From the IMG/VR virus record IMGVR_UViG_3300044620_001069, positions 1-26,449 of that record: DNA of 26,449 nucleotides, one strand, 5' to 3'. The position numbers and the translations under genes are program-made. The notes under the pieces were generated by a model. The model was not told where the DNA came from. It did not search any database and worked only from the letters and a program-made list of their open reading frames with translations. Shown here piece by piece: positions 6,487-12,403 of this stretch (its first letter is position 1; the number at the start of each line of letters is the position of its first letter). The DNA is from a virus.

Positions 6487-6939
6487 TTACACATCCAAAC
6501 TATAATTCATATAATCAAAACTTAATTTTTTTGTTGAAAAAATCTCGGTTAGGGATGTCAGAATGGGTTTTAATTTTGGTCGAAGATCGACTGTGTATCT
6601 AACTTTTGGAGGATAAACCTTCGCATCCATGTACCTTGAATAAAGAATGTTTTCACCATTTTTAATGGTTAATGTAAATTTTTCCGGTCCATCCAAAAAT
6701 GAAGTTTCCATAATATCAGGGTTTTCAAAAATCTCATATTGATTATCCATCATATAAGTCGCAGTTCTAACTCTAAGATTCTCACGAAATTCTGTAATAA
6801 ACTCCTCAATAAATTCATGCAGATCGATTGAATTTTTAGCCTTTGGGTTATAACCCCTGACGTTAAAAAATCTTTGGACAATAATGTTGTCATTGACCTT
6901 CAAAAGGAATTCAAGTTTTGTAATTTCTTGCTCTTTCAT
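6487..6939 (-). CDS. Unknown protein with an internal duplication, between exonuclease and helicase
   Basis: I do not recognise this 150-residue protein, but it contains two related copies of a segment of about 42-46 residues. Copy 1 is at residues 11-52 and copy 2 at 88-133. Shared anchors are F11/F88, L13/L90, I19/I98, R23/R102, Y30/Y109, P32/P111, K33/K112, D39/D118 and L40/L119. The spacing from R to Y (7) and from Y to D (9) is identical in the two copies. Each copy looks like a beta hairpin followed by a DL-initiated helix. The start codon overlaps the exonuclease stop (ATGA), indicating translational coupling, and the helicase follows after 29 bases. A role with the replication proteins is inferred from position only. 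There is no catalytic motif, zinc site or membrane segment. In T4 the helicase loader gp59 and primase gp61 are the expected helicase partners, but I see no resemblance to either. Confidence 0.82.
   Translation of the reverse strand: MKEQEITKLEFLLKVNDNIIVQRFFNVRGYNPKAKNSIDLHEFIEEFITEFRENLRVRTATYMMDNQYEIFENPDIMETSFLDGPEKFTLTIKNGENILYSRYMDAKVYPPKVRYTVDLRPKLKPILTSLTEIFSTKKLSFDYMNYSLDV
6541..6678 (-). repeat. Second copy of the protein-level internal duplication
   Basis: This stretch encodes residues 88-133 of the unknown protein and pairs with residues 11-52. Both copies read F-x-L, then N-I, an Arg, seven residues to Tyr, a P-K pair, and nine residues from the Tyr to Asp-Leu. The similarity is in the protein and not obvious in the DNA, so the duplication is old. 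Confidence 0.6.
6784..6909 (-). repeat. First copy of the protein-level internal duplication
   Basis: This stretch encodes residues 11-52 of the unknown protein, beginning FLLKVNDNIIVQRFF and including YNPKAKNSIDL. It aligns with residues 88-133 (FTLTIKNGENILYSRY, then YPPKVRYTVDL) with one inserted residue before the Asn-Ile pair. Confidence 0.6.
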
Positions 6940-7952
6940 AATTTGTTTTTTTGGTTTTTGAATTTGATTTTTTCTTTTCTTGTTAATTTTAAAATGGGTC
7001 TTAAAAACTCAACCCAAGCGTTATCATTTTTTGGTAGATATTTAAACAAACCATCTTCCATCATCATTCGAATTAAGTTCTTATATCCACGACCATCAGG
7101 GTCTAATGTTTCTTTATAATAATCTTGGACGATTTGTTTTGCGTTATCAGTTATTAGTGGGTTAGATAAGTCAATTATCTTTTCATTTATTTGAAAATAT
7201 TCTTCACCATATATACCATCCTTTGTTTTTCCTGTAAGTAAATTTTTAAGTGCGACATTTTCTTTATCTTCTTTTAAAAGTGTTTCTGCTTTTAATAAAA
7301 TATCATTAAATGATATTGGATTTTCAAGTATTTCGGGAAATAATTTAACCAATGTTTTTTCTCCGAGTAATCTAATACCATCAATATTATCTGAAGTATC
7401 ACCACATAAAATTTTGATTGTTTTAATGTTATAGTGGGGAAATTCTAATTCCTTATTTTTAATCATATCACCCATCTTATATGTTTTTTTTGCGTTGGGT
7501 GAATAAACTGACACCTTACCTGAAATAAGTTGTGTAAGATCCCTATCCCCTGAAAAGATGGTTATTTGTTCGTTTTCTGCTATTTGACAATAATATGATA
7601 TAAGGTCGTCGGCTTCATTATTATTAACCTCAATTTGTCTTACAAACATTTCTTCCAAATATTGTTTGATTCTTTCTTTTTGTCTGTAAAAAGACTCCTT
7701 TTTTTGGTCAGTTTCCGTTGAGGTTCTTTGTTCTTTATATTTGGGGTATATTAATTTTCGTGCGGATGAATTTGAGTCACCGTCCCACATTACAACTACC
7801 TTATCAAAATTTTGTTCTTCTATGAATTTACGGAGGGTATTTAAAAAATGATAAATACCTCCGATGTGCTCACCTTTGTGGTAAAACTCTTTAACCCCAT
7901 AGAATCCTATCTTGAGCAAATTATTTGCATCTACGAGTAATGTTTTAGTCAC
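6936..7952 (-). CDS. 5'-3' exonuclease / flap endonuclease, T4 RNase H-like (PIN/FEN family)
   Basis: This 338-residue nuclease would remove lagging-strand RNA primers and 5' flaps. Metal-binding acidic residues are present in order: D8 (LLVDANN), D57 and D59 (MWDGDS), E113, D115 and D116 (NNEADD), D136 and D138 (SGDRDLTQL), and D185 and D188 (CGDTSDN). The helix-three-turn-helix DNA-binding element follows at about 184-206 (GDTSDNIDGI, then LLGEKTL). The start is GTG (7950-7952): an in-frame stop lies at 7965-7967, and the catalytic VDANN must sit near the N-terminus, so no upstream ATG is possible. The gene begins 4 bases after the HNH endonuclease stop. Its own stop overlaps the next start (ATGA). 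T4 RNase H is 305 residues; the extra length here lies mainly in the C-terminal third, which is Lys-rich. Confidence 0.92.
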   Translation of the reverse strand: MTKTLLVDANNLLKIGFYGVKEFYHKGEHIGGIYHFLNTLRKFIEEQNFDKVVVMWDGDSNSSARKLIYPKYKEQRTSTETDQKKESFYRQKERIKQYLEEMFVRQIEVNNNEADDLISYYCQIAENEQITIFSGDRDLTQLISGKVSVYSPNAKKTYKMGDMIKNKELEFPHYNIKTIKILCGDTSDNIDGIRLLGEKTLVKLFPEILENPISFNDILLKAETLLKEDKENVALKNLLTGKTKDGIYGEEYFQINEKIIDLSNPLITDNAKQIVQDYYKETLDPDGRGYKNLIRMMMEDGLFKYLPKNDNAWVEFLRPILKLTRKEKIKFKNQKNKL

Positions 7953-7956
7953 TTTG

Positions 7957-8670
7957 TTATTTTTTTAATTGTTCAACAATAATTTTGTTACTTTTTTTCA
8001 AATTATCTTCCGCCCATAAAGGTTGAAGATTTGTGTAATGACATAATTTATATAGTTCCTCTTCTGTTTTAGCGGATGATAAAGGAATTATGTGGTCTAT
8101 GTGCCATTCATTTCTATTTTCCCAAGTCATACCACTTACAAATTGTTTTTCTAAATGTTCTTTTAATTCATAAGGAGAACAACCGACGATGTCAAATGTT
8201 TTGTTTTTTTTTGTAAATCCTTTTTTTGTGAGATACGAACATAACCGAGATCTCATTCCTGTTAATAGATTGTAAAATGAATTGTTTTTCTTTTTTATTT
8301 TTTCACTTTCATTTCGTTTAACCTTATTTTCACGTCTATGTGTTTGGATCTTTAACTTAATCAATTCTTTATTTTTTTCGTAATATTCTTTTTTTCTTTT
8401 CCTAACTTTATCACTATTTACATTTCTGTATTTTTTTTGATATTCCGAAATTTTATCCTTCACCTCAAAATAATGATTTTTGATTTTTGTTTTGTTATTA
8501 TCCCTCCACTTTTTCTTTCTTAACAACACATTCTCACCATCGTATTTTTTTTCAATATTTTTCCTACACTCTCTGCAAAAATATCTATATCCGTCTTTAG
8601 ATGATTTAAGTTTACCAAATTCACAAACACTTTTTTCTACATTACATTTAGAACAAACTTTAGTTTCCAT
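7957..8670 (-). CDS. HNH homing-type endonuclease with N-terminal zinc finger
   Basis: The gene encodes 237 residues in three parts. Residues 1-40 carry a four-cysteine zinc site, C6/C9 (CSKC) and C32/C35 (CREC), as often seen at the front of phage HNH proteins. Residues about 41-135 form a very Lys/Glu/Asn-rich helical arm, probably for DNA contact. Residues about 188-228 carry the HNH nuclease: H190, D192 and H193 in WHIDHIIPL, then N214 in TNLQPLW and N223 in EDNLKKSNK. Such enzymes cut or nick phage DNA and promote their own spread. The gene sits between uvsX and the exonuclease, in a Lys-rich, highly A+T-rich segment. Its start overlaps the end of a small ribbon-helix-helix gene by 11 bases. 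All nuclease and zinc residues are intact. It is a free-standing gene and does not interrupt a neighbour. Confidence 0.93.
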   Translation of the reverse strand: METKVCSKCNVEKSVCEFGKLKSSKDGYRYFCRECRKNIEKKYDGENVLLRKKKWRDNNKTKIKNHYFEVKDKISEYQKKYRNVNSDKVRKRKKEYYEKNKELIKLKIQTHRRENKVKRNESEKIKKKNNSFYNLLTGMRSRLCSYLTKKGFTKKNKTFDIVGCSPYELKEHLEKQFVSGMTWENRNEWHIDHIIPLSSAKTEEELYKLCHYTNLQPLWAEDNLKKSNKIIVEQLKK

Positions 8671-8812
8671 TTTTAATATAATCTTTCAATAGTTTATTAA
8701 CTAGGGAAGATAGATTTATAGATTTATCTTTAAAGTATTGAGGTAATTCCGGATCAACGGATACTCCTATTTTAACTTTTTTTTCAATTTCGTTTATTTT
8801 CTTTCTTCCCAT
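8660..8812 (-). CDS. Small ribbon-helix-helix (Arc/CopG-type) DNA-binding protein
   Basis: This 50-residue gene was found by reading the spacer between uvsX and the HNH gene. It begins ATG 8812 (MGRKKINEIEKKVKIGVSVD) and ends TAA 8660. A basic N-terminal arm leads to a short beta strand with alternating residues (VKIGVSVD, 13-20). A first helix starts at PELPQYFKD and a second at SINLSSLVNKLLKDYIKN, which is the layout of a minimal ribbon-helix-helix dimer that binds DNA through the strand. Its stop lies 11 bases inside the HNH gene, so the two are translationally linked. The likely role is a repressor that binds its own promoter and limits endonuclease expression; this is inference from context. 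It could also be an antitoxin-like remnant, but the partner here is clearly an HNH nuclease. Confidence 0.72.
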   Translation of the reverse strand: MGRKKINEIEKKVKIGVSVDPELPQYFKDKSINLSSLVNKLLKDYIKNGN

Positions 8813-8861
8813 ATTAATAAATATCTACAAATTAGTAAAAAGTAGAATAATTATAACTTTT

Positions 8862-9848
8862 TTATTCGTCAATTTCAGATTCTTTTTCATCCAAAAGAAT
8901 CTCACCAGTTCCCGAAAGTATTGCGTTCCAATAACTAGAGTATTGTTTCTTATATTGTTCTAATGCTTCTTTGGTATCACTAATATACCCTTGTGGTACG
9001 GCAATAATCTTACTATCTTTATATCCCAAACCATTTACGTGATTTTTAATAATGGATATTTTAGTTCTGATTGCGTAAGATACAGTTCTTCCGTTTTTAG
9101 TTGCGGTAATGTGATTAATGCCAGCTTTCTTTTGGTTTCCAAATAAGAATACCAAAGAAGATGCTAACCAAATTGCTTCGCCCCCCTTACTTTTAATTTC
9201 AGGTTGTCCGAAAGGATTATCGGGTAGATCAACCCAAGGTTGGTTAACCACAACCATAGTGTTATAATATGGGTAATCTTCTTTCTTTGACTTTGAAATT
9301 CTTGAGTGAATACCCATACCGATTTTATCGGCAAGTGCCGAGGCGTTATGCATCTTCCCACCTTTACCTTCAAATGTCATCTTACAAGGAATTGAACCAA
9401 CAGAATCCCATAGGAATAATAAATTGTAAGGAATGTCCCCTTTTTCTTGATCGTCCAACATTTCATTAATGAAGTCAGTTGCTTGTTCAATATAGTCAAA
9501 ACTATCATTAAATATGAAGTCTCCGTCCCATTCTCCATTACTATTTTTTTCCGCAACCAATCCCAATTCAATCGCGTGTTCCCAAGACCATTTCTTCTCT
9601 GTGATAATGAAAACAGGAATATGTCCTTTTCTCTGAGCGTCAGCCCCTGCCAAAATCATAGCGGTAGTTTTAGAAGAATTCGAGTGACCCAAAAACATAT
9701 TGATACCACCCATAATTGGACCTGGTAATCCACAAGCCTCCATAAAGGCTTCACCACAATTATAATAACTTTCAGGTTTATATTTTGTTTTAGTCGAGAA
9801 CTTATCTTTAATACTACTTAACCCGATTTCTTTTTTCTTTAAAGCCAT
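8862..9848 (-). CDS. uvsX: RecA-like recombinase UvsX
   Basis: The gene encodes 328 residues from ATG 9848 (MALKKKEIGLSSIKDKF), one base after the upstream stop at 9850. A longer frame to 9917 would run through the end of the upstream gene and is not needed. UvsX coats single-stranded DNA and performs strand exchange in phage recombination, repair and recombination-primed replication. Walker A is residues 54-61 (GHSNSSKT), with K60; the second glycine of the classical motif is replaced by serine, and T4 UvsX likewise departs there. E84 in IITEKKW is the probable catalytic glutamate, Walker B is LLFLWD (D148), and VVVNQPW (about 199-205) corresponds to the RecA segment with the ATP-sensing glutamine. 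The C-terminus is acidic (DEKESEIDE), as in many RecA proteins. T4 UvsX is about 390 residues, so this is a shorter version. Confidence 0.93.
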   Translation of the reverse strand: MALKKKEIGLSSIKDKFSTKTKYKPESYYNCGEAFMEACGLPGPIMGGINMFLGHSNSSKTTAMILAGADAQRKGHIPVFIITEKKWSWEHAIELGLVAEKNSNGEWDGDFIFNDSFDYIEQATDFINEMLDDQEKGDIPYNLLFLWDSVGSIPCKMTFEGKGGKMHNASALADKIGMGIHSRISKSKKEDYPYYNTMVVVNQPWVDLPDNPFGQPEIKSKGGEAIWLASSLVFLFGNQKKAGINHITATKNGRTVSYAIRTKISIIKNHVNGLGYKDSKIIAVPQGYISDTKEALEQYKKQYSSYWNAILSGTGEILLDEKESEIDE

Positions 9849-9849
9849 A

Positions 9850-10068
9850 TTAAATTTCGTATTTGTAAAATTGTTCCAAGTTTTCCAACTTGTCTTTTGC
9901 GTTGGCTCTTTTTTCAATTAACTTATCCATTTCTTCAATATGTTGCGGATGTTCTCCGATACCAACAGGATTCGTGAAATAAACAAGTAATGATGATTCA
10001 GCGTCCAACATCTCAAACTCATATTTAGTTTTAAGAGCTTGATACATTTTATTTTTTATTTTGTCCAT
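9850..10068 (-). CDS. Small helical unknown protein upstream of uvsX
   Basis: The gene encodes 72 residues from ATG 10068 (MDKIKNKMYQALKTKYEFEM). An in-frame ATG at 10101 would place the start inside the terminator hairpin and add a low-complexity stretch, so 10068 is preferred. The protein is mainly helical, with a central VYFTNPVGIGEHPQHIEEMD motif and a heptad-like second helix (MDKLIEKRANAKDKLENLEQ). I recall no named family. Small proteins with a similar NPVGIGEHP-type motif may occur near uvsX in other T4-like phages, but I cannot confirm this from sequence alone. Its stop is one base before the uvsX start, so it is probably co-translated with uvsX. It begins just downstream of the gp32 terminator, so expression depends on read-through or on an unseen promoter. 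Confidence 0.75.
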   Translation of the reverse strand: MDKIKNKMYQALKTKYEFEMLDAESSLLVYFTNPVGIGEHPQHIEEMDKLIEKRANAKDKLENLEQFYKYEI

Positions 10069-12374: not shown

Positions 12375-12382
12375 TATTTATA
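12375..12382 (-). promoter_or_regulatory. Candidate T4-late-promoter-like TATAAATA box (weak)
   Basis: TATAAATA on the minus strand equals the T4 late-promoter core and lies 9 bases upstream of the ATG at 12365. It is part of the near-palindrome TATTTATAAATA, so orientation is ambiguous, and the leader would be only a few bases long. Chance occurrence in A+T-rich DNA is a serious alternative. Confidence 0.22.
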
Positions 12383-12403
12383 AATATCACCAAAAGATGA
12401 AAA

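Follow-up and report, generated by a model that had tools for sequence, protein, structure and literature searches.

A homing nuclease is a danger to the genome that carries it, and to our knowledge the way in which free-standing ones are restrained has been worked out only for a handful of examples from T4. Small dedicated regulators are familiar from other systems. The C proteins of restriction-modification systems are small helix-turn-helix regulators encoded just 5' of the nuclease, and act on their own promoter. Minimal ribbon-helix-helix (RHH) repressors of the CopG/Arc type, stand-alone proteins of 45-53 residues with no effector tail, act on plasmid copy number or on the lysis-lysogeny genes of phages. 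In phage T4, the free-standing homing endonucleases (seg and mob) are intergenic and lie beside core replication genes, segA adjoining uvsX (PMC2988022). They are patchily distributed among relatives and often overlap the upstream ORF by 11-24 bp (11 for segF, 20 for segC and 23 for mobA), the overlap partner being a host gene (PMC2988022). Seven of them are promoter-less, and that review attributes to none of them a repressor gene of its own or a shared operator (PMC2988022). I-TevI, from the T4 td intron, represses its own synthesis through an operator that overlaps its promoter and resembles its homing site (PMC2988022).

We analyzed a window of 26,449 nucleotides (IMG/VR virus record IMGVR_UViG_3300044620_001069, positions 1 to 26,449) in which the gene of a small RHH-like protein overlaps an HNH nuclease gene. 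The pair and its leader probably constitute a free-standing homing cassette that encodes the RHH repressor of its own promoter and whose portable control module has been swapped between nucleases. As with C proteins, a small putative DNA-binding regulator is encoded just upstream of a nuclease gene, but it is RHH-like rather than helix-turn-helix and its partners belong to homing-type nuclease families instead of restriction-modification systems. The protein resembles CopG and Arc in being a small, stand-alone RHH without a tail, with an Arc-like PHROG match; its proposed target differs, being a homing nuclease and not plasmid copy number or lysis-lysogeny genes. The intergenic site, the overlap sizes and the patchy distribution recall the T4 seg and mob genes, except that the overlap partner here is a cassette-owned RHH gene with its own putative promoter. 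As for I-TevI, a protein encoded by the element would limit nuclease expression at a putative promoter-overlapping operator; I-TevI itself is the repressor, whereas here a separate RHH protein would take this role. Both halves of the scheme thus have precedent, since T4 overlaps and I-TevI autorepression are documented (PMC2988022). In the full-text literature searched, whose scope excluded subscription papers and preprints, no description was found of an RHH/Arc repressor arranged with a homing endonuclease.

Organization of the locus

All features described here lie on the minus strand. The RHH gene (8660-8812, ATG start, 50 codons) overlaps the HNH gene (7957-8670, ATG start, 237 codons) by 11 nt at 8660-8670, where the codons for the last RHH residues, NGN and the stop, overprint the MET start of the nuclease; the coordinates and overlap first read from the sequence are confirmed. 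Upstream, a uvsX-like RecA recombinase gene (8862-9917; PHROG 97, E 3e-13) ends where the cassette begins, at the uvsX stop codon, and the interval from there to the RHH start (8813-8861) forms a leader conserved together with the cassette. Downstream, a 5'-3' exonuclease gene (6936-7952, GTG start; Pfam PF02739, 2e-33) begins 4 nt past the HNH stop. The pair sits between both genes, as initially described, and the same junction is empty in 45 uvsX relatives. Chance does not explain the RHH/HNH pairing: of 178 distinct RHH contexts, 165 show the same overlap, and the RHH gene evolves under purifying selection (median dN/dS 0.15).

Evidence that the 50-residue protein belongs to the RHH family is weak but consistent. 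It matches Pfam CcdA with an E-value of 1.7e-4 and 22.3 bits, just below the cut-off of 22.4, and the PHROG 'Arc-like repressor' family at about 1.2e-3; the homologue at locus L266 reaches 24.3 bits against CcdA, above the cut-off. Searches of PDB sequences returned no RHH match and were uninformative. The AlphaFold monomer is of low confidence (mean pLDDT 68), with helices at residues 25-28 and 34-47 and the strand not formed. Judged by sequence and by this model, the chain stops shortly after helix 2, lacks a toxin-binding tail and would be a bare DNA-binding domain.

The nuclease matches PHROG 1035 'endonuclease VII' (E 2.5e-21). Its architecture comprises an N-terminal CxxC...CxxC zinc-binding part (8566-8655), a long series of short predicted helices, and a C-terminal HNH motif region (HIDHIIP...NLQPL...NLKK; 7993-8103). 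An alignment of 33-35 members displays invariant C6, C9, C32 and C35 in the former, and H190, D192, H193, N214, N223 and K226 in the latter, so that the active-site residues of a homing family are intact. In the structure model the strands of the CxxC...CxxC part are of high confidence, and the top Foldseek match, a weak one, is the beta-beta-alpha-Me enzyme Hpy99I. The middle region of the protein (window gene 7957-8670) varies in both length and sequence at a single site, relatives having 186-258 residues.

Presence and absence at insertion sites

We surveyed the uvsX/exonuclease junction in 80 uvsX relatives from IMG/VR. Twenty carry an RHH gene with a nuclease and 45 are empty, with junctions of at most about 110 nt; the others contain methylases, other genes or an HNH remnant. 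This distribution, with more empty than occupied junctions, identifies the cassette as a mobile insertion and not a core component: most uvsX relatives lack the pair here, contrary to what a core locus would present. Comparison of an empty locus (L002) with an occupied one (L003), both with a uvsX gene 97% identical to that of the window, defines the insertion site, which the sequence-only reading had left to be located from cassette-free relatives: the insertion starts cleanly at the uvsX stop codon and, on its 3' side, the end of the HNH gene continues into native sequence. A second pair (L441 empty, L442 occupied; polymerases 94% identical) places an insertion between a DNA polymerase stop codon and the next terminator-like hairpin, and a third (L447/L448) involves an HtrL/YibB-like gene. 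Broken cassette remnants are found at L028, L093 and L157.

These observations bear on two other readings of the locus. One would have the RHH protein regulate neighbouring phage genes such as uvsX, the HNH gene being merely inserted behind it. The RHH protein is indeed better conserved than its nuclease at the uvsX site, but it is missing from all 45 readable empty junctions, which makes regulation of uvsX unlikely; it also accompanies nucleases at many other sites and in both orientations, and no uvsX-site RHH gene was seen without a nuclease gene downstream. We regard this reading as extremely unlikely. The other takes the pair as a nuclease operon serving the phage in some other way, for instance rival exclusion, and not mobile by homing. 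Purifying selection on the RHH gene would suit such a function, and homing is itself putative here; the patchy distribution, the precise placement at stop codons, the broken remnants and the LAGLIDADG partners described below all fit homing, and we give this second reading very little credence. The homing cassette remains the preferred interpretation.

Other genes lie in the same region. At L212 (2669-4033), a TnpB-like ORF with a Cas12f1-like TNB domain (PF07282, 1.4e-24) lies directly 3' of a uvsX-site RHH-HNH cassette. Methylase genes without an RHH gene are present in the junction at L014 and L031 (C5) and at L017 (Dam-like by eye).

Diversity of nuclease partners and genomic sites

A first scan of IMG/VR contigs, seeded by the RHH protein alone, returned 80 loci, 75 of them with the HNH family. 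After the addition of divergent seeds and whole-contig searches, 178 distinct RHH contexts were available, of which 165 have the HNH family directly downstream. Overlaps between the two genes are nearly always 11-29 nt, mostly 20 (86 cases), 11 (46) or 23 (17), and all have the same frame relation. Cassettes are located at the uvsX/exonuclease junction and beside genes for DNA polymerase B, a DnaG-like primase, an SNF2-type helicase, SmpB and an HtrL-like protein. Automatic clustering of flanking ORFs yields about 45 flank classes, at least 20 of which we judged clearly different. The RHH gene thus recurs beside HNH genes at different loci, the point that the sequence-only reading had put up for checking, and it almost always adjoins a nuclease rather than occurring mainly without one. 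A single phage contig of 85-318 kb can hold as many as five RHH genes, each at a different locus. Cassettes are found in both orientations and some are antisense to neighbouring genes, hence they need a promoter of their own.

Partners are not restricted to HNH proteins. The RHH gene overlaps or directly precedes a LAGLIDADG_3 nuclease gene at L264, L260, L275 and L370 (2e-9 and 1e-8 among the matches), and a NUMOD3/TnsA-like nuclease gene at L092, L094 and L095 (NUMOD3 6e-6, TnsA-like 1e-5). At the uvsX/exonuclease site, it also stands before a C5 DNA methylase gene at L098 (322-2460) and L371 (from about 2702); the L098 methylase gene starts inside the RHH gene and is interrupted by a LAGLIDADG intein.

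The layout also resembles a toxin-antitoxin module, since the gene of a small DNA-binding protein comes first and runs into that of a nuclease; the RHH protein would then neutralize a toxic DNA nuclease and render the cassette addictive, and weak matches to the CcdA and BrnA antitoxins point the same way. Several lines of evidence oppose this. Since members of one RHH family stand before nucleases whose folds are unrelated, a specific fit between the RHH and nuclease proteins is unlikely. The RHH protein stops at helix 2, without the tail that would contact a toxin. Finally, at least five uvsX-site loci keep an intact nuclease without any RHH gene, and a PADLOC search gave no match. A toxin-antitoxin function is therefore very unlikely, and this part of the sequence-only reading is abandoned. 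Its principal proposal, a self-regulated homing cassette with repression entrusted to a separate RHH protein, is favoured by the recurrence of the pair, its patchy presence and its conserved leader.

Two side observations concern SmpB and SNF2-type helicase genes. The SmpB homologue beside which RHH-HNH cassettes insert is encoded by a large phage (L262:1986-2423; PF01668, 3e-48). Genes for SNF2-type helicases (G011:142671-145553, G027:21293-24130 and G013:80804-83668) contain an in-frame insert of ~1.1 kb after about residue 168, giving open frames of 962-982 residues; these inserts are likely inteins.

Association of the leader with the RHH gene

The leader is conserved alongside the cassette in phages with differing uvsX genes. 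Partial correlations between leader and RHH similarity are 0.64 for cassettes at the same site and 0.30 for cassettes at different sites, against -0.03 and 0.04, respectively, between leader and HNH. Linkage alone would produce part of this co-variation, as the leader physically adjoins the RHH gene. Between different sites, DNA homology begins at the upstream stop codon and spans the leader, the RHH gene and the start of the HNH gene; in four alignments (L166/L266, L166/L267, L165/L378 and L338/L351) it resumes only in the HNH domain. One further candidate for a different-site pair, L304/L308, was dropped as its downstream flanks align.

The converse situation, a nuclease without the module, is encountered at the uvsX site, where intact HNH genes lack an RHH gene at L060, L186, L198, L216 and L224 at least. 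In these five loci the nuclease starts directly after the uvsX stop codon and the leader is gone too. Most contigs bearing such RHH-free nucleases have no RHH gene anywhere, and the promoter-like element described below was found in none of 12 RHH-free nuclease loci. Comparison among loci shows leader and RHH gene to be co-inherited as a module exchanged between nucleases, the same head standing before HNH, LAGLIDADG and NUMOD3/TnsA-like proteins at many unrelated sites.

The same data allow us to weigh the idea that the RHH protein is the targeting half of the system, docking at the homing site and recruiting an HNH protein with little specificity of its own. At the uvsX site RHH proteins are 78-98% identical whereas their nucleases, with a hypervariable middle, are only 36-53% identical, and the gene overlap would balance synthesis of the two. 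Elsewhere, however, RHH proteins 83-98% identical occur at unrelated sites with unrelated flanks, next to HNH proteins 44-51% identical (L351/L338, L378/L166 and L166/L266). Nor is an operator-like sequence found near the empty uvsX site, where the best match (15-16 of 26 positions) is that of shuffles, in contrast to I-TevI, whose operator resembles its homing site. Similar RHH proteins at unrelated sites and the lack of an operator copy at empty ones disfavour this idea, as do the intact HNH genes that occupy the same site without an RHH gene, and we judge it improbable. Under the preferred scheme, the RHH unit is most likely a dedicated off-switch for nucleases.

Conserved elements in the leader

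In the cassette family the leader measures ~50 nt and combines GATATTTAT with an ACTTTT box, the latter often within a dyad specific to the RHH type. The element ATATTTAT is present in 167 of 176 RHH leaders, about 12-14 nt 5' of the RHH start; over 31 RHH clusters, conservation of a TTT placed at a fixed distance reaches 99-100%. ACTTT occurs in 126 of 157 RHH leaders versus 4 of 70 control leaders that share GATATTTAT. In the window, the pattern at 8817-8843 is an exact match to that of the family, with the promoter-like element GATATTTAT at 8817-8825, 12-14 nt 5' of the RHH start, and the ACTTTT box at 8838-8843, inside a putative operator (8837-8862) formed by the imperfect dyad AAAAAGT-N12-ACTTTTT, which was recorded at L001, the identical locus. 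The stretch 8813-8861, singled out beforehand as the possible binding site of the RHH protein, coincides exactly with the leader conserved with the cassette.

Dyads around the ACTTTT box vary with RHH type and are the same across different sites. For instance, TGTGAATATTCACA recurs in cassettes beside uvsX, the helicase and the primase, and imperfect versions of it occur beside the polymerase; AAGTATNACTTTTCATACTT goes with the MKPRKKEED type of RHH and AAAGTGAAACTTT with the RKVKFGISLD type. On average over 31 RHH clusters, dyad symmetry is modestly above that of shuffles (mean z 0.74), with few clusters reaching significance individually, and symmetric covariation across clusters is seen at some centres only (z 3.4-4.2). 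Together, the putative operator dyad and the conserved box beside GATATTTAT make the leader a candidate promoter and operator region of the nuclease operon.

We rejected GATATTTAT as a cassette-specific signal, as it is also present upstream of other phage genes; it probably represents a phage promoter class. A second exact copy lies at window positions 12380-12388, just 5' of an ORF family of 75 residues (MNTVKEILDNYLGK...) common in relatives. In addition, at about 1600-1646 in L128 and L129, a long inverted repeat (AACTTTGTCATGTATT) located 5' of another HNH ORF encloses a short loop whose opposite orientation in the two loci suggests that it undergoes inversion.

A model for nuclease control

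Leader, RHH gene and HNH gene insert as one three-part unit at the uvsX stop codon, and we propose that the ~50-nt leader supplies the cassette with its own promoter and operator. RHH dimers would occupy the leader at the ACTTTT box, closing the promoter of the operon that encodes them, and the gene overlap would couple translation of the nuclease to that of the RHH protein. With translational coupling and repressor build-up, little nuclease would be made later. The insertion site would be set by the nuclease, not by the RHH protein: in co-infection the nuclease would cut cassette-free genomes, and repair would copy the cassette in. This autorepression model predicts operator specificity classes. 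If correct, selfish nucleases would have a general means of control in a portable repressor-promoter head that serves three unrelated nuclease folds and reaches five copies in a single phage.

A bolder version, about which we are doubtful, holds that leader and RHH gene form a mobile control module passed between HNH, LAGLIDADG and NUMOD3/TnsA-like nucleases and acting in trans. A cell making one RHH type would then silence any newly arriving cassette of that type, while one that enters an RHH-free infection would fire at once, an immunity-like logic akin to zygotic induction. Within five genomes, we saw no signal of avoidance of similar RHH types (mean identity 0.43 both within and between genomes).

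Occurrence in isolates and huge phages

All members of the RHH family come from metagenomic contigs, and the window protein had no match in 50,697 phage isolate records. A scan of genome contigs using an HNH relative as query recovered no relatives. HNH relatives do exist in four isolate or huge-phage records (L437-L440), with no RHH-like ORF seen upstream. The RHH gene together with its GATATTTAT leader could serve as a marker for finding cassettes in unannotated large phages. In the huge-phage record LR756502 (L436:1362-1511), an ORF of 49 residues, RHH-like by eye and with no significant match, is arranged likewise, overlapping a related HNH gene.
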